This document shows positions 24,571-31,126 of a DNA stretch of 50,741 nucleotides, piece by piece. The position numbers and the translations under genes are program-made. Location of the stretch: the NCBI GenBank assembly GCA_039908345.1, contig JAMOBD010000013.1:1-50741 (forward strand), in the 5' to 3' direction. Below the pieces are notes generated by a model. The model was not told where the DNA came from, did not search any database, and saw nothing but the letters and a program-made list of their open reading frames with translations. The DNA is from Magnetospirillum sp. WYHS-4 (lineage in GTDB: Bacteria; Pseudomonadota; Alphaproteobacteria; Rhodospirillales; GLO-3). Within the stretch, counting starts at the first letter, position 1. Each line of letters opens with the position of its first letter.

Positions 24571-25773
24571 ATGCATCCGAGACAGCCGAACAGGCCGGCG
24601 CGCCGGCGTTTTCTGATGGGCGCCGCGGCAAGTGCCGCCGCCGCCTGGGTCCCGTCGCGGTTTGCTATCGGCGGCGAGGCGCCGGTCCGGATCGGCATCA
24701 TGCTGCCCTACACCGGGGTCTACGCCCAGCTGGGCGAGAACATCACCAGCGGACTGACGATGCGGCTCAAGGCTACCGGCGACAAGCTGGGCGGCCGGAC
24801 ATACGAACTCCACAAGGTCGACAGCGAGGCCAATCCCTCCAAGGCCGTCGACAACGCCACGAAATTGGTCAAGGGCAAGGATGTCGATTTCGTGGTCGGT
24901 CCGGTGCATTCCGGCGTCGCGCTCGCCATGACCAAGGTGATGGCCAAGTCGCCCAAGACCATCATGATCTGTCCCAACGCCGGGGCGGACGAATTGACGC
25001 GCGGCGCCTGCCTGCGGAACGTCTTCCGTACTTCTTTCAGCAATTGGCAAACCGGATTTTCCATGGGTGCCGAGGTGCTGAAGCGCGGCCATAGGCGCGT
25101 TGTCACCTTGACCTGGAAGTACGCCGCCGGCCAGGAGATGATGGCCGCTTTCGGCGAGAGTTTCCGTAAGGCAGGAGGCGCAGACCCGGTGGAGCAACTC
25201 TGGGTCGACTTTCCCGACGCCGAATTCCAGCCGGTGCTGACCCGCATCGCGGCCCTGAAGCCCGACGCCGTCTTTGCCTTCTTCTCCGGCTCGGGCGCGG
25301 TCAAGTTCATTCGCGACTACGACACGGCTCTGGATCGCAAGCAGATCCCTCTTTATGGCACCGGCTTTCTGACGGAGGGCGTGCTGGACGCGGTCGGCAA
25401 CCACGCCGAAGGCATCGTCACCGCGCTGCATTGGGCCGAGACCCTGGATTCTCCGGAAAATCGCCTGTTCCTGGGCGACTTCCGCAAGACCACCGGCCGG
25501 ATGGCCGATGTCTTCGCGGTTCAGGGATGGGATACCGGAACCCTGCTCTATCGCGCCCTGGACACGGTCAAGGGCGATACCGGCGCCACCAAGGACCTCA
25601 TCCAGGCGATGGAGGATGCCGAGATTTCGGGGCCGCGCGGTGTCTGGCACATGTCCAAATCCCACAACCCGATCCAGGACTTCTACCTGCGGCAGGTCGA
25701 AGGCGGCCGCAACAAGGTCCTGGGCATCGCCCACGCCCAATTGGAAGATCCGGGCACCGGCTGCAAGATGTGA
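24571..25773 (+). CDS. ABC transporter substrate-binding protein, Liv type, Tat-exported
   Basis: A 400-residue periplasmic binding protein of the branched-chain amino acid/amide family. RRRFLMG at residues 11-17 with the alanine-rich stretch after it is a Tat signal. The mature part opens RIGIMLPYTGVYAQLGENI and continues with FVVGPVHSGVALAM and WKYAAGQEMMAAF, typical of this fold type. Tat export is unusual for this family but known in alphaproteobacteria. It begins a five-gene operon with both permeases and both ATPases. The ligand could be a branched-chain amino acid, urea, or an aromatic acid; the sequence does not decide. Confidence 0.9.
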   Translation: MHPRQPNRPARRRFLMGAAASAAAAWVPSRFAIGGEAPVRIGIMLPYTGVYAQLGENITSGLTMRLKATGDKLGGRTYELHKVDSEANPSKAVDNATKLVKGKDVDFVVGPVHSGVALAMTKVMAKSPKTIMICPNAGADELTRGACLRNVFRTSFSNWQTGFSMGAEVLKRGHRRVVTLTWKYAAGQEMMAAFGESFRKAGGADPVEQLWVDFPDAEFQPVLTRIAALKPDAVFAFFSGSGAVKFIRDYDTALDRKQIPLYGTGFLTEGVLDAVGNHAEGIVTALHWAETLDSPENRLFLGDFRKTTGRMADVFAVQGWDTGTLLYRALDTVKGDTGATKDLIQAMEDAEISGPRGVWHMSKSHNPIQDFYLRQVEGGRNKVLGIAHAQLEDPGTGCKM

Positions 25774-25774
25774 C

Positions 25775-26644
25775 ATGGACGCCTCGTTCGTCCTGATCCA
25801 GGCCTTGAACGGCGTCCAGTACGGCATTCTGCTGTTCCTGGTGGCGAGCGGTCTTACCCTGGTGTTCGGCATCATGGGCGTAATCAATCTCGCCCACGGG
25901 TCCTTCTACATGATCGGCGCCTATCTGGCCTATTGGCTGACCGCGAAGACCGGCAGCCTGGGAGGCGCCGTGGCCTTGGGCATTCCCATCGCCTTCGCCC
26001 TGGGACTGGCGGTGGAGCGCTTTGCGGTCTCCTTCCTCTATGGCCAAGACCACTTGAAGCAAGTTCTGCTGACCTATGGGCTGATCCTGGTGCTCAACGA
26101 ACTGCAACGCATGCTGTGGGGAAGCGACGTTCATTCGGTGCCGGTGCCGGAGATACTGCGGGGCACCGTCCGGCTTACCGAGACCCTGTCTTATCCGATC
26201 TATCGCCTGTTCCTGTCCGCGGCCTGCTTGGCCTTGGCCGGCGGCATGGCGTGGGTGGTGCGCCGGACGCGCCTCGGCATGACCATCCGCGCCGCCGCCG
26301 CGGACCGCGAGACGGCCGGAGCCCTGGGGATCGACACCGACCGCCTGTTCTCCCTGGTCTTCGGTGCCGGTGCGGTGCTGGCGGCCCTGGCCGGAATGCT
26401 CGCCGCCCCCATCGAGTCGGTGGCGCCCGGCATGGGCGAGCAGGTGTTGGTGCTCTGCCTGGTGATCGTGGTCATCGGCGGCATCGGCTCCGTCAAGGGC
26501 GCCTTCCTGGGCGCCATGGCCATCGGCCTAGCCGACTCCTTCGGCAAGACCCTTCTGCCCGAGACCGCCGGCCTTTTCGTCTACGGCCTGATGGCTGCGG
26601 CCTTGGTCTGGCGGCCGCAAGGCCTGTTTGCCCGGGGGACCTGA
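25775..26644 (+). CDS. Branched-chain amino acid-type ABC permease, LivH-like
   Basis: A 289-residue integral membrane permease, LivH group, with the diagnostic LVASGLTLVFGIMGVINLAHGSFYMIGAY start and the ERFAVSFLYGQDHLKQVLLTYGLIL stretch. The ABC-facing loop carries RRTRLGMTIRAAAADRETAGALGID, the EAA-like coupling region. It starts one base after the binding-protein stop, so it is translationally linked, and is followed by a LivM-like permease almost without gap. It forms one half of the transmembrane pathway. Confidence 0.93.
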   Translation: MDASFVLIQALNGVQYGILLFLVASGLTLVFGIMGVINLAHGSFYMIGAYLAYWLTAKTGSLGGAVALGIPIAFALGLAVERFAVSFLYGQDHLKQVLLTYGLILVLNELQRMLWGSDVHSVPVPEILRGTVRLTETLSYPIYRLFLSAACLALAGGMAWVVRRTRLGMTIRAAAADRETAGALGIDTDRLFSLVFGAGAVLAALAGMLAAPIESVAPGMGEQVLVLCLVIVVIGGIGSVKGAFLGAMAIGLADSFGKTLLPETAGLFVYGLMAAALVWRPQGLFARGT

Positions 26645-26645
26645 G

Positions 26646-27530
26646 GTGCGCGCCCCGGCGATCCACGGTGCGATTCTCGCCCTGCTGCTGGCCCTGCCGC
26701 TCACGGTGGGCGAGTTCGGGCTCACCCTGGGTGCCAAGCTGGCCGCCATGGCGCTGTTCGCCATGAGCCTCGATCTGCTGGTCGGCACCGTCGGCCTGGT
26801 CAGCCTGGGCCATGCCGCCTACCTGGGCCTGGCCGCCTACGCCGCCGCCCTGCTGCCGCCGGGCTTCGCCTCCCTGCCCGCCGCCGTGGCCGCCGCCGGT
26901 CTGGCGGCACTGGTCATCGGCGCACTCTGCCTCCGGGCATCGGGAGTCTACTTCATCATGGCGACCCTGGCCTTCGCCCAGATGGCCTTCACTTTCGTCC
27001 AGGGGGCCTCCGTCCTGGGCGGGTCCGACGGGCTGCTGATCGATGCCCGCCCCCTCCTGGTGAAGGATGCCGCCGCCTTCTACCTGTTCAGCGTCGCCGT
27101 CCTCGCCGCCGGCTACGGGCTGCTGGCCTGGGTGGTGCGATCCCCTTTTGGCCGCAAGCTGGCCGGCATCCGGATGAACGAGGCACGCATGGCCTCGCTC
27201 GGCTACGCCACCTACCGTCTGAAACTCGCCGCCTTCGTCATCGCCGGGGCGGTGGCCGGGCTGGCCGGATGGCTGATGGCCTATCAGGCCGAATACGTGT
27301 CGCCGGGGCTGCTGGACTGGCGCCTGTCAGGCCTGGCGCTGATGATGGTGATCCTGGGCGGCAAGGGAACCTTGTACGGCCCGGCTATTGGCGCCGCCGC
27401 CCTGGTGCTGCTGGAGGAAGTCCTGTCCGATCTCACCGCCCACTGGATGCTGGGAATGGGGCTGTTCGTCATCCTGGCGGTGATTTTGCTGCCGCGCGGC
27501 CTGGCGGGCCTGCGGAGGCATCATGGCTGA
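26646..27530 (+). CDS. Branched-chain amino acid-type ABC permease, LivM-like
   Basis: A 294-residue LivM-like permease. Recognisable: SLDLLVGTVGLVSLGHAAYLGLAAY, then GVYFIMATLAFAQMAF and WVVRSPFGRKLAGIRMNEARMASLGY, the cytoplasmic coupling loop. The start is a GTG at 26646, two bases after the LivH stop and six after GGGGGA; a TTG further upstream is unlikely. It overlaps the livG start by eight bases. It pairs with the LivH-like permease. Confidence 0.92.
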   Translation: MRAPAIHGAILALLLALPLTVGEFGLTLGAKLAAMALFAMSLDLLVGTVGLVSLGHAAYLGLAAYAAALLPPGFASLPAAVAAAGLAALVIGALCLRASGVYFIMATLAFAQMAFTFVQGASVLGGSDGLLIDARPLLVKDAAAFYLFSVAVLAAGYGLLAWVVRSPFGRKLAGIRMNEARMASLGYATYRLKLAAFVIAGAVAGLAGWLMAYQAEYVSPGLLDWRLSGLALMMVILGGKGTLYGPAIGAAALVLLEEVLSDLTAHWMLGMGLFVILAVILLPRGLAGLRRHHG

Positions 27531-28230
27531 GGTCTTGCTGGAAACCGTGGGCCTTTCGCGTGCCTTCGGCGGCCTGCATGCGGTCGCGGATCTGTCCTTG
27601 CGTGTCGAAGCCGGCCGCGTCCACGCGGTGATCGGCCCCAACGGCGCCGGAAAGACCACCCTGGTCAATCTGCTGTCCGGCCACCTCGCCCCGACGGCCG
27701 GACGCGTCCTCCTGGAAGGCCGCGACATCGCCGGCCTGCCGCCCTACCGCATCGCCCGCCTGGGGGTGGGACGTATCTTCCAGCGTACCAGCCTCTTCGC
27801 CGAGGCCACCTGCCTGGAGAACTGTTGCCTCGGTGCGGGCGGCGGGCGGGACGCCATCGGCCGGGCCCGTGCGGCCCTCGATCTCTGCGATCTGGGCGAC
27901 CTGGCGGAGGTGCGCGCCGACCGCCTCAGCCATGGTGCCGCCCGTCAGCTCGAAATCGCCCTCATGCTGTCCGCCGGGCCGCGCCTGCTGCTGCTGGACG
28001 AGCCCCTGGCCGGCATGGGTGCCGAGGAATCGGTTCGCACCACCGCCCTGCTGAAAAAACTCGCCGGCGACCGCACCCTGGTGCTGATCGAACACGACAT
28101 GGATGCCGTCTTCGCCTTGGCGGATACTGTCACGGTGATGGTGGACGGCCGGGCCATCGCCACCGGCAATCCGGCGGCGGTGCGCAACGACCCGGCCGTG
28201 CAGCGGGCTTACCTGGGGCATCCGGCATGA
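27523..28230 (+). CDS. ABC ATPase, LivG-like
   Basis: A 235-residue ATPase with Walker A GPNGAGKTT (about 36-44), signature LSHGAARQLEIALML (about 137-151) and Walker B LLLLDEPLAGM. The signature with His and Ala in place of the second Gly-Gly pair is normal for LivG. LGVGRIFQRTSLF is the Q-loop. EHDMDAVFALAD is the switch region with the catalytic His. It overlaps livM at the front and livF at the end (ATGA), so the operon is tightly coupled. Confidence 0.93.
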   Translation: MAEVLLETVGLSRAFGGLHAVADLSLRVEAGRVHAVIGPNGAGKTTLVNLLSGHLAPTAGRVLLEGRDIAGLPPYRIARLGVGRIFQRTSLFAEATCLENCCLGAGGGRDAIGRARAALDLCDLGDLAEVRADRLSHGAARQLEIALMLSAGPRLLLLDEPLAGMGAEESVRTTALLKKLAGDRTLVLIEHDMDAVFALADTVTVMVDGRAIATGNPAAVRNDPAVQRAYLGHPA

Positions 28231-28922
28231 CCCTTCTGGAAGCCCGGGGCCTGCATGTCTACTACGGGGAAAGCCACATCCTGCACGGCGTCGACCTGCT
28301 CATCGCGGCGGGGGAAGCGGTAGCCCTGCTGGGGCGCAACGGCATGGGCAAGACGACGACGGTGCGCGCCCTGATGGGCCTGACGCACCCGCGCCGGGGA
28401 TTTGTGCGGTGGTTGGGAGAGGACATCACGGCCGCCCCTCCCTTCCGCCGTGCCCGCTCGGGCCTGGGCCTGGTGCCCGAGGGGCGAGGCATCTTCCCCA
28501 ACCTGACCGTCGACGAGACCCTGGCGGTGGCAGCCCGGCCCGGCGGGGAATGGACGCGGGAAGCGGTGCTCGGCCTCTTTCCGCGCTTGGCGGAACGGCG
28601 CCATCACCCGGCCGGCAGGCTGTCCGGGGGCGAGCAACAGATGTTGGCCATCGGCCGCGCCCTGACCACCCATCCGAGGCTACTGATTCTGGACGAAGCC
28701 ACGGAGGGTCTCGCACCTTTGGTGCGGGAGGAGATCTGGGCGGTGCTGCGCCGTCTGCATGCGGCCGGCCTGGCGATCCTGGTCATCGACAAGGATTTGG
28801 AGACCTTGCTGGGGCTGGTCGACCGCTGCGCCATCCTGGAAAAGGGCCGCATCGTCTGGGATGGATCGACCGCCGACTTGGCTGCGCGTCCGGACGTCCA
28901 TCTGAGATATTTGGGAGTTTAG
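28227..28922 (+). CDS. ABC ATPase, LivF-like
   Basis: A 231-residue ATPase with Walker A GRNGMGKTT, the LivF-type VPEGRGIFPNLTV, signature LSGGEQQMLAIGRAL and Walker B LLILDEATEGLAP. The switch region reads VIDKDLETLLGL: the usual catalytic His of ABC ATPases is replaced by Lys in this copy (VIDKDL, where LivF proteins normally have VEQN or similar with variable residue), which is tolerated in LivF. It overlaps livG by four bases. It is the last gene of the operon; the radical SAM gene follows after 87 bases that contain an AT-rich -10-like box. Confidence 0.92.
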   Translation: MTLLEARGLHVYYGESHILHGVDLLIAAGEAVALLGRNGMGKTTTVRALMGLTHPRRGFVRWLGEDITAAPPFRRARSGLGLVPEGRGIFPNLTVDETLAVAARPGGEWTREAVLGLFPRLAERRHHPAGRLSGGEQQMLAIGRALTTHPRLLILDEATEGLAPLVREEIWAVLRRLHAAGLAILVIDKDLETLLGLVDRCAILEKGRIVWDGSTADLAARPDVHLRYLGV

Positions 28923-29009: not shown

Positions 29010-29966
29010 ATGCCCAGCAACCGGGCCGTCCAGCGGCGGCCGCTCGATCCGTCCAAGTTCCGCGATCCCCGGCTGACCGCCAAGGGCCAGGATCGGGCTG
29101 TGGTGGCGCTCACCCGCCTGCGGTGCGTCTGGTTCAATACCGGCAGTCTGTGTAATCTGAATTGTCACGGCTGCTACATGGAATCGGGTCCCACCAACGA
29201 CCGTTTGCCGTTTCTGTCGGCGACCGAGGTCCGGACCTATCTGGACGAGATCGCCGCTTGCGGCCTGCCGGTCGAGGAGATCGGGCTCACGGGCGGCGAG
29301 CCCTTCATGAACAAGGACATCCTTGCCATCCTGGAAGACGCGCTGGAGCGCGGCTTCCGCGTCCTGGTGCTGACCAACGCCATGCAGCCCTTCCGGTTCC
29401 GCCGCGAAGCGGTGAAGGCCCTGAACGAGAGGTTTCCCGGCCGGCTGACGCTTCGGGTTTCCATCGACCACCCGAGCCCTGAAGGGCACGAGGCCAACCG
29501 GGGCGACGGCTCCTGGGACAAGATGCTGGAAAATATCAGGTGGATGGCTGGTAATGGTCTTTCCCTGGCCGTCGCGGCCCGCACCGGCTGGGGCGAGGCG
29601 CCCGACGTTCTGCGCGCCGGCTACGCGGCACTGTTCGCCCACCTGGGCATCCCCATCGACGTTACCGATCCACGCCGGCTGGTGTTGTTCCCCGAGATGG
29701 ATGCGACCCAGGACGTCCCTGAAGTCTCGGTGCAATGCTGGGATATCTTGGGCGTCGCCCCCGACAGCATGATGTGCGCCACCTCGCGCATGGTCATCAA
29801 ACGCAAGGGTGCCGACCGTCCGGTGGTCGTGCCCTGCACCCTGCTGCCCTACGATCCCCGCTTCGAACTGGGGTCCGAGCTTGCCGGCTCGGCCCAGGCC
29901 GTCTCCCTCAACCATCCCCACTGTGCCAGCTTCTGTGCGCTGGGCCGTGGGGCCTGTTCGGTGTGA
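29010..29966 (+). CDS. Radical SAM protein of unknown substrate
   Basis: A 318-residue radical SAM enzyme. The 4Fe-4S/SAM motif is CNLNCHGCY near residues 48-56, followed by LTGGEPFMNKDI, the SAM-amine binding motif, and VLTNAMQPF. Near the C-terminus are five more cysteines in PCTLLPY, HPHCASFCALG and GACSV, likely ligands of an auxiliary cluster (SPASM/twitch-like), often tied to peptide or protein substrates. No precursor peptide or partner is obvious beside it. GGGGAAAGG precedes the ATG. apaG begins two bases after its stop, so they share a message. The reaction is unknown. Confidence 0.88.
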   Translation: MPSNRAVQRRPLDPSKFRDPRLTAKGQDRAVVALTRLRCVWFNTGSLCNLNCHGCYMESGPTNDRLPFLSATEVRTYLDEIAACGLPVEEIGLTGGEPFMNKDILAILEDALERGFRVLVLTNAMQPFRFRREAVKALNERFPGRLTLRVSIDHPSPEGHEANRGDGSWDKMLENIRWMAGNGLSLAVAARTGWGEAPDVLRAGYAALFAHLGIPIDVTDPRRLVLFPEMDATQDVPEVSVQCWDILGVAPDSMMCATSRMVIKRKGADRPVVVPCTLLPYDPRFELGSELAGSAQAVSLNHPHCASFCALGRGACSV

Positions 29967-29968
29967 CC

Positions 29969-30391
29969 ATGCCTCTCCAGCAATTGCAGACAGCATCGCC
30001 CTACGTCTCGACCACCCACGGCATCACCGTGTCCGTCGAGCCTTCCTACCTGGCCGAACAGTCGGACCCCGAGGCCCAGCATTTCGTCTGGGCCTACCAC
30101 GTGCGCATCGAAAACCACAGCAGCGGCCCGGTCCGCCTGCTCACCCGCTACTGGAAGATCACCGACGCCCGCGGCACGGTGCGCGAGGTCCATGGCGACG
30201 GCGTGGTCGGCGAACAGCCGACCCTGGCGCCCGGCGAGTCCTTCGAATACACCAGCGGCACCCCCTTGCCGACCCCGTCGGGCATCATGGTCGGCACCTA
30301 CGGCATGACCACGGAAAGCGGTCAGCCCATCGAAGTGGCCATTCCCGCCTTCTCCCTGGATAGCCCGCATGAACGGCGGCAGGTTCATTAG
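29969..30391 (+). CDS. apaG: ApaG, DUF525 protein
   Basis: A 140-residue all-beta protein of the ApaG family. YWKITDARGTVREVHGDGVVGEQPTLAPGESFEYTSG is the core, with the glycine loop GDGVVGEQP and SGTPLPTPSG typical of the fold; VEPSYLAEQSDPEAQHFVWAYHVRIEN is the usual first strand pair. Despite the name, ApaG is not firmly tied to a single process; it has been linked with Co2+ resistance and diadenosine polyphosphate metabolism, and eukaryotic relatives are domains of F-box proteins. It is fused into one transcript with the radical SAM gene by a two-base gap. Confidence 0.92.
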   Translation: MPLQQLQTASPYVSTTHGITVSVEPSYLAEQSDPEAQHFVWAYHVRIENHSSGPVRLLTRYWKITDARGTVREVHGDGVVGEQPTLAPGESFEYTSGTPLPTPSGIMVGTYGMTTESGQPIEVAIPAFSLDSPHERRQVH

Positions 30392-30466
30392 AACGGGTTG
30401 AAATCGGAAGGGACCTCCCCACATCAAGCGAAGTCTATCGCCTCCCCTTTCTTCAGGAGACCTTCC

Positions 30467-31126
30467 GTGCCCCCCACAAAGAAGACCTTGACCGTCGTCG
30501 ATGCCGAAGGCGTGCTGAACCCTTCCGGCGTCGCTCTGCCCAGCCGCGCGGAAGCGGAGGAGGCGGTGCGGGTGCTGCTCCGCTGGGCCGGCGACGACCC
30601 GGACCGCGAGGGCCTTCGGGATACGCCGTCACGGGTAGTCAAGGCCTATGAGGAGTATTTCCAGGGCTACGCCGCCGATCCAGTCGAGCACCTCAAGCGC
30701 ACCTTCGAGGAAGTGGACGGCTACGACGAGATGGTCCTCCTGAGGGATATCCGCTTCGAATCCCACTGCGAGCATCACATGGCGCCGATCATCGGCCGCG
30801 CCCACATCGCCTACCTGCCGCACCGCCGGGTGGTCGGCATCAGCAAACTGGCCCGTCTGGTGGAAATCTTCGCCAAGCGTCTGACCATCCAGGAAAAGAT
30901 GACCGCCCAGATCGCCAACACGCTGAACGATATCCTGCAGCCGGAAGGCGTGGCCGTGGTCATCGAGGCGGCGCACCAGTGCATGACGACGCGCGGCGTC
31001 CACAAGCCGGGCGTCACCATGGTGACCAGCCGCATGCTGGGCGCCTTCCGCGACAATTCCTCGACCCGGCGCGAGTTCATGGCGGCCATCGGCAGCCCGC
31101 GTGGGGGCAATGGGGGGCTAGTCTGA
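30467..31126 (+). CDS. folE: GTP cyclohydrolase I
   Basis: A 219-residue type IA enzyme, first step from GTP to dihydroneopterin triphosphate for folate. Zinc ligands Cys and His appear in [11 protein letters not shown] and in HQCMTTRG, and the signature [21 protein letters not shown] is present. The C-terminal TRREFM is typical. The start is a GTG at 30467 with AGGAGA seven bases upstream; the TTG at 30398 that lengthens the frame is not supported. It lies 75 bases beyond apaG. The leader shows no clear riboswitch. Confidence 0.95.

Follow-up and report, generated by a model that had tools for sequence, protein, structure and literature searches.

Arsenosugars and arsenolipids occur widely in the sea; to our knowledge, their microbial producers are for the most part still to be identified. 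The radical SAM enzyme of the arsinothricin pathway is ArsL. The arsinothricin radical SAM enzyme forms its C-As bond by transfer of a 3-amino-3-carboxypropyl group, and ArsS, also a radical SAM enzyme, adenosylates arsenic en route to oxo-arsenosugars (PMC12159101). The genes that accompany ArsS can be read from its loci. One of them (L199) carries TIGR04282, a VTT/MerA fusion, ArsS, an MTA phosphorylase and TIGR04283. At another (L200), TIGR04282, MerA-like and MTA phosphorylase genes are present with TIGR04283 close by. On a Burkholderia glumae plasmid, arsS is found with TIGR04283, an MTA phosphorylase, a second radical SAM protein and DUF547.

We analyzed a stretch of 50,741 nucleotides from Magnetospirillum sp. 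WYHS-4 (the window) that carries a radical SAM gene immediately upstream of apaG. Gene neighbourhoods and co-occurrence across genomes point to arsenosugar biosynthesis rather than to a partnership with apaG. By analogy with ArsS, we propose that this unnamed radical SAM family, with its auxiliary-cluster C-terminus, probably replaces ArsS in arsenosugar biosynthesis and would represent a non-ArsS route for 5'-deoxyadenosyl transfer to arsenic.

The radical SAM gene and its protein

The features of the window that matter here are as follows.

29010..29966, + strand: radical SAM gene, 318 aa, ATG start; proposed ArsS-equivalent arsenic adenosyltransferase
29151..29174, + strand: CNLNCHGC motif (C48, C52, C55), from the translation; cysteines invariant in 31/31 relatives
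29736..29777, + strand: auxiliary cysteines C243 and C256; invariant in 31/31 aligned relatives
29835..29957, + strand: auxiliary cysteines C276, C305, C309 and C316 (CTLL ... HPHCxxFC ... GxCS); invariant in 31/31
29969..30391, + strand: apaG, 140 aa; PF04379 122.8 bits, NCBIfam ApaG NF003967 165.1 bits (cut-off 106)
30398..31126, + strand: folE, GTP cyclohydrolase I (coordinates of the longest ORF, with an uncertain start); NF006825 271.7 bits
31253..33154, + strand: kup potassium transporter; PF02705 606.2 bits

A run of ORFs upstream (24571-28922), by eye a branched-chain amino acid ABC transporter, ends 87 bases before the radical SAM gene.

The first-pass annotation had recognized a radical SAM gene with a CNLNCHGC cluster motif, and this gene is real: the protein, with the spacing C48-x3-C52-x2-C55, scores 67.1 bits against Pfam Radical_SAM (PF04055, cut-off 29.5) and belongs to the superfamily. 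Its description as a gene without known function also fits. Among the best 25 of 59 NCBIfam matches every score lies below the cut-off, and on this basis the protein is claimed by no curated family and the family is unnamed. The top match, the Rv1681 family (NF049973), gives 95.7 bits for a cut-off of 380; it has the core domain in common and is confined to residues 40-192. Open-licence literature searches found no description of this radical SAM family, nor any paper that brings together arsenosugars, a radical SAM enzyme and a glycosyltransferase, and public annotation, where present, reads merely 'radical SAM protein' (Roseomonas plasmid). The window's genome contains one full-length copy of the enzyme and three core-only matches.

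The C-terminal cysteines had been counted as five in the motifs PCTLL, HPHCASFC and GACSV. The count there is four; C243 and C256, upstream of these motifs, had been missed. That extra cysteines exist is nevertheless correct: six are invariant in 31 relatives and are for this reason not a matter of chance. A C-terminal cysteine pattern drawn up afterwards from the alignment fits 110/110 family rows.

These six cysteines sit in a C-terminal extension, as in SPASM/twitch enzymes, and the auxiliary iron-sulfur cluster of this type suggested earlier is supported by them together with the predicted fold. The AlphaFold model of the window protein has a mean pLDDT of 86.3 and a pTM of 0.87, with pLDDT below 50 at residues 1-8 and 48-62 (the cluster motif) and low confidence at the C-terminal end. 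The closest folds by both Foldseek and VIA are those of BlsE, SuiB and SkfB (VIA Z of 17.3 for BlsE over 237 residues at 3.6 A, 17.2 for SuiB and 16.5 for SkfB), with the C-terminal end and residues 48-62 poorly modelled. The predicted fold is consistent with a radical SAM barrel that carries a SPASM/twitch-like extension, and a fold of this kind does not tell the substrate. No Pfam SPASM/twitch model matches the window protein at E 0.1, and none in NCBIfam is above its cut-off among the best 25 of 59 matches. The SPASM cysteine spacing differs from that of the window protein.

Distribution of the family

Within the order of the window the enzyme was matched in 104/199 genomes at E 1.8e-30 or better, and in the class-wide sample of Alphaproteobacteria in 83/289 genomes at E 1e-60, roughly 30%. 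A phylum sample gave 12/160 genomes at E 1e-40, including four with distant members that fall outside the class. Named relatives include assemblies of Pelagibacteraceae/SAR11, Acetobacteraceae and Porticoccaceae; those under actinobacterium and Nitrosovibrio record titles may be binning errors. Cluster-borne relatives inside the class share 53-59% identity with the window protein (L038 over 218 residues), except L158 with 35%, and the distant members from outside the class share 32-34%.

Among the 111 loci that we fetched and counted are the window itself (L159), some close relatives and a pair that is probably one locus (L101/L049, on contigs of equal length); L065-L068 match the enzyme core only and were excluded. 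After removal of nine near-duplicate or partial rows, the tree was built from 110 members of the family together with two ArsS (112 rows in all). With support by SH-aLRT only, 46/109 inner branches are open. Members linked to arsenosugar-type clusters are scattered over this tree, with 11 label changes by parsimony, a number that is not a firm lower bound because many forks are weak.

Some relatives of the enzyme lie in arsenosugar-type gene clusters

Gene content and linkage around the enzyme were read directly from the 111 loci. Sixteen of them contain TIGR04283-like genes, 14 TIGR04282-like genes, 13 VTT genes, seven MTA-phosphorylase-like genes and four ArsM. A MerA-like oxidoreductase (cluster 19) occurs in seven loci; an alternative count of ten includes loci that match just the VTT half of a fused reference. 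By chance, 0.3 linked loci would be expected, a rough estimate that assumes one TIGR04283 gene per ~3,400. None of TIGR04282, TIGR04283, ArsM, MerA-like or MTA phosphorylase genes is nearby in 88/111 loci.

In L244, a member from outside the class, TIGR04282, TIGR04283, ArsM, the enzyme and a VTT/MerA fusion lie on one strand. In L245, also from outside, a family 2 glycosyltransferase that is weakly TIGR04283-like, DUF547, TIGR04282, ArsM, the enzyme and MTA phosphorylase again share one strand, and in L246 and L247, likewise outside the class, the enzyme adjoins a VTT/MerA fusion. L158 has TIGR04282-enzyme-TIGR04283 beside ArsM; L157 has enzyme-ArsM-VTT-MerA-like with a TIGR04282/TIGR04283 pair nearby. 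The glycosyltransferase genes and the enzyme are ordered TIGR04283-TIGR04282-enzyme in L099 and enzyme-TIGR04283-TIGR04282 in L129, the enzyme is divergent from the pair in L113, and L110 is also among the cluster-bearing loci. In the Porticoccaceae loci L040-L044, which are close relatives of one another, the enzyme faces an MTA phosphorylase-TIGR04283-TIGR04282 run; the genome behind L041 has a homologue of the long ArsM (L251).

The enzyme or a relative also occurs on plasmids. On a Roseomonas haemaphysalidis plasmid (L253) the enzyme is found with TIGR04282, DUF547, a second radical SAM protein, FAD-dependent oxidoreductases and VTT. There the enzyme gene adjoins a phosphate/phosphite/phosphonate ABC transporter, for which arsenical import is a possible role. 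A Marinobacter adhaerens plasmid (L254:10001-10880) carries a relative that was matched in two pieces, has no annotated gene and is possibly a broken copy; it is 52% identical to the L244 enzyme. Separately, a gene of the fatty-acid-hydroxylase family (cluster 49) was seen near the glycosyltransferases at L053, L063, L157, L186 and L187, a hint of a lipid end product.

The window's genome has a long ArsM (C7:42099-43142) and TIGR04283 (C37:17289-17933). Its TIGR04282 is split into two pieces close to the starts of contigs C37 and C82, and the shorter piece matches weakly (E 1.5e-4). Enzyme, ArsM and glycosyltransferase genes are on separate contigs, and the window locus itself shows no linkage to an arsenosugar partner.

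Co-occurrence across genomes

At E 1e-20, TIGR04283 is present in 79/83 class genomes with the enzyme versus 30/206 without it (Fisher 2.8e-40, kinship ignored). At this threshold 109/289 genomes are counted, of which 92 exceed the curated cut-off. Of the 30 genomes with TIGR04283 that lack the enzyme, 28 lack ArsS too. In such enzyme-less genomes, TIGR04283 and TIGR04282 adjoin a gene of one cluster at L202, L204, L206 and L208, which in L206 is an APH-type phosphotransferase by Pfam; the APH-type kinase-like neighbour was seen in 4/7 loci examined. This setting without the enzyme indicates that the glycosyltransferase pair is not specific for arsenic, and a different use of it beside the APH-type gene is possible.

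By NF008823, ArsM was found in 15/83 genomes with the enzyme vs 4/206 without (p 3.8e-6, kinship ignored), and all 6/289 genomes with its long form bear the enzyme. A second ArsM-like form (ArsM2), searched with its own model, occurs in 10/83 genomes with the enzyme vs 1/77 without (p 0.01), the latter including many small genomes. The lone enzyme-less ArsM2 genome (G321) has the same taxonomic family code as G424, in which a partial enzyme lies at a contig end. ArsM2 proteins (L223-L228) are ~390 aa long, and two of them score 362.7 and 369.9 bits against the arsinothricin ArsM model (cut-off 500). ArsM of any form is present in 25/83 enzyme-bearing genomes; the pooled comparison with 5/206 overstates the contrast because ArsM2 was searched in 83/83 genomes of the one group and in 77/206 of the other. 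ArsM was thus undetected in 58/83 genomes with the enzyme, and this is what weighs most against assigning every member an arsenic role.

ArsS itself was found in 2/289 class genomes, both without the new enzyme, and no genome in the sample holds both.

SAR11 members

Two SAR11 loci (L053:4164-5474 and L063:6748-8058) encode a fusion of 437 residues, with a TIGR04283 part at 3-197 and a TIGR04282 part at 219-403, each below its cut-off. The order in both is enzyme, VTT gene and then the TIGR04283-TIGR04282 fusion, and the fetched stretch is free of ArsM. A VTT gene (cluster 8) lies directly 3' of the enzyme in ten loci, including these two. No ArsM was detected in the SAR11 genomes searched; one of these searches, with NF040538 in the 30 genomes behind L034-L064, returned a single ArsM overall, missed the visible ArsM of L038 and is therefore not counted as a negative result. 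Open-licence searches of the literature found nothing joining arsenosugars and SAR11. An ORF of 55 aa is conserved after the VTT gene, ~1.6 kb past the enzyme start, in L049 and nine other SAR11 loci, and was seen in SAR11 only.

A wider reading of these data is that this family would be a second and widespread group of radical SAM enzymes, outside ArsS, that adenosylate arsenic, found in about 30% of the alphaproteobacteria sampled (83/289) and in the streamlined ocean bacteria of SAR11. SAR11 and its relatives would then import methylated arsenic and turn it into arsenosugars, or glycolipids that resemble them, by means of a fused two-step glycosyltransferase. We offer this reading tentatively and would sooner expect some part of it to fail.

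A proposed pathway and the question of the acceptor

The substrate, reaction, intermediate and order of steps outlined here are inferred from ArsS. SAM would be cleaved at the cluster held by C48, C52 and C55. The 5'-deoxyadenosyl radical would then add to a trivalent dimethylated arsenical, either made by ArsM or taken up, to give a 5'-deoxy-5'-arsenical adenosine. The MTA-phosphorylase homologue, whose specificity is putative, suits a 5'-substituted 5'-deoxyadenosine intermediate of this kind; it would remove adenine and leave an arsenical ribose-1-phosphate. The TIGR04282 (CofC-like) protein would activate this sugar phosphate, and the TIGR04283 glycosyltransferase would hand the activated arsenical sugar to an acceptor. 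Redox or membrane steps may fall to the VTT/MerA-like oxidoreductase. If this is true, arsenosugar producers would be more numerous than ArsS indicates, with the enzyme in 83/289 and ArsS in 2/289 of the alphaproteobacteria sampled, plus SAR11, and clear test organisms for arsenosugar production would be at hand.

The same pathway logic might serve a different end in most hosts, the adenosyl group going to some other small molecule or element and arsenic being used only in lineages that carry ArsM. The large share of enzyme-bearing genomes in which ArsM was undetected speaks for this, as do the two SAR11 loci that keep the enzyme, VTT and the glycosyltransferase fusion but show no ArsM over the length fetched, and the phosphate/phosphite/phosphonate transporter next to the enzyme on the Roseomonas plasmid. 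However, the members linked to ArsM fall in three places of the tree (L038/L139; L157; L158/L244/L245) and have the same core and auxiliary cysteines as the others. Methylated arsenicals could be imported, and detection of ArsM was incomplete, as the missed gene of L038 illustrates. On balance we regard another acceptor as unlikely, though deserving of attention.

A partnership of the enzyme with ApaG (or FolE) is far less probable, and we give it little credence. It was suggested by the start of apaG two bases after the radical SAM gene, a spacing that is exact (TGA stop codon at 29964-29966, apaG from 29969), and wherever apaG was found (49/111 loci) it lies downstream of the enzyme and reads in the same direction. 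However, the two genes are separated by 100 nt or less in only 17/111 loci, apaG being elsewhere more distant or not found, and metZ, ompA or dcd stand between them in other loci, which suggests an inherited gene order. One genome that lacks the enzyme retains the order ompA-apaG-folE (L207, the single locus of this kind observed), and among loci with TIGR04282 or TIGR04283 nearby, apaG is in the fetched stretch only at L131. folE is often found downstream in relatives, as is trkH, which appears in many loci of the cluster table. The proposed functional link is therefore weak, and open-licence literature searches found no report joining a radical SAM enzyme and ApaG. The adjacency of folE and apaG looks like inherited gene order, and apaG is probably a syntenic neighbour outside the pathway.

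The auxiliary cysteines, and a predicted fold near SuiB, SkfB and BlsE, allow a second reading, namely that the enzyme, like SPASM/twitch enzymes that act on peptides or proteins, has such a substrate. We scanned the gene-free space within 1.5 kb of the 111 enzyme genes for ORFs of 20-100 aa on the same strand. None of the 263 candidates is conserved across the family: the two widest sets each extend to 12 loci, and the next is confined to ten SAR11 loci. The earlier remark that no precursor peptide is visible near the gene thus extends to the family, and a peptide or protein substrate is unsupported. Nine loci were scanned for tRNAs, eight chosen from the conserved-ORF sets rather than at random, plus the window. 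A tRNA-Gly(CCC) lies near the enzyme in 8/9 (L109, L117, L128, L136, L147, L160, L166 and L168), the window being the exception, and it was nearby in all eight scanned loci of the two widest ORF sets. A peptide modifier was rejected for the family on the lack of a family-wide short ORF, the two widest sets lying near tRNA-Gly. Moreover, BlsE, the top fold match, belongs by its record title to blasticidin S biosynthesis and not to peptide maturation, and the partner genes of the family concern sugar and arsenic. Modification of a peptide or protein is accordingly a very improbable role, and replacement of ArsS in arsenosugar biosynthesis is the reading that we retain.

Comparison with known systems

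The SPASM/twitch enzymes BlsE, SuiB, SkfB and PqqE have in common with the predicted fold a C-terminal extension that bears cysteines. They differ from the window protein in their partners, and no precursor peptide was found around the family. ArsL is likened here by description only: it is a radical SAM enzyme that forms a C-As bond, as the proposed enzyme would, with a different group transferred.

The window protein is not an ArsS by sequence. It scores 50.6 bits against the ArsS model (TIGR04167), whose cut-off is 300, and has no match at E 0.1 to DUF3641 (PF12345), the C-terminal domain of ArsS that is found at 184.8 bits in the ArsS of L199. The identity of the two proteins is 23-25% over ~140 residues only, and hhalign, with two sequences on the ArsS side, aligned the radical SAM core alone (probability 97.5-97.8). 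By eye, both have the CxxxCxxC spacing and, after it, a C-x-x-E-x-x-P stretch. The C-terminal cysteines are also alike by eye, MC...C...HCxxC...GSSC in ArsS and MC...CTL...HxxCxxC...GxSC in members from outside the class, a resemblance that is suggestive.

TIGR04282, TIGR04283, MTA phosphorylase and the VTT/MerA-like oxidoreductase are common to ArsS and the new enzyme, and DUF547 accompanies the new enzyme on the Roseomonas plasmid and in L245 and is likewise present in the region of the Burkholderia glumae arsS. The two sets of loci thus have the same kinds of partner around a different radical SAM enzyme. Since the protein fails as a member of the ArsS family, we file it as a variant that would work like ArsS, and not as an ArsS.
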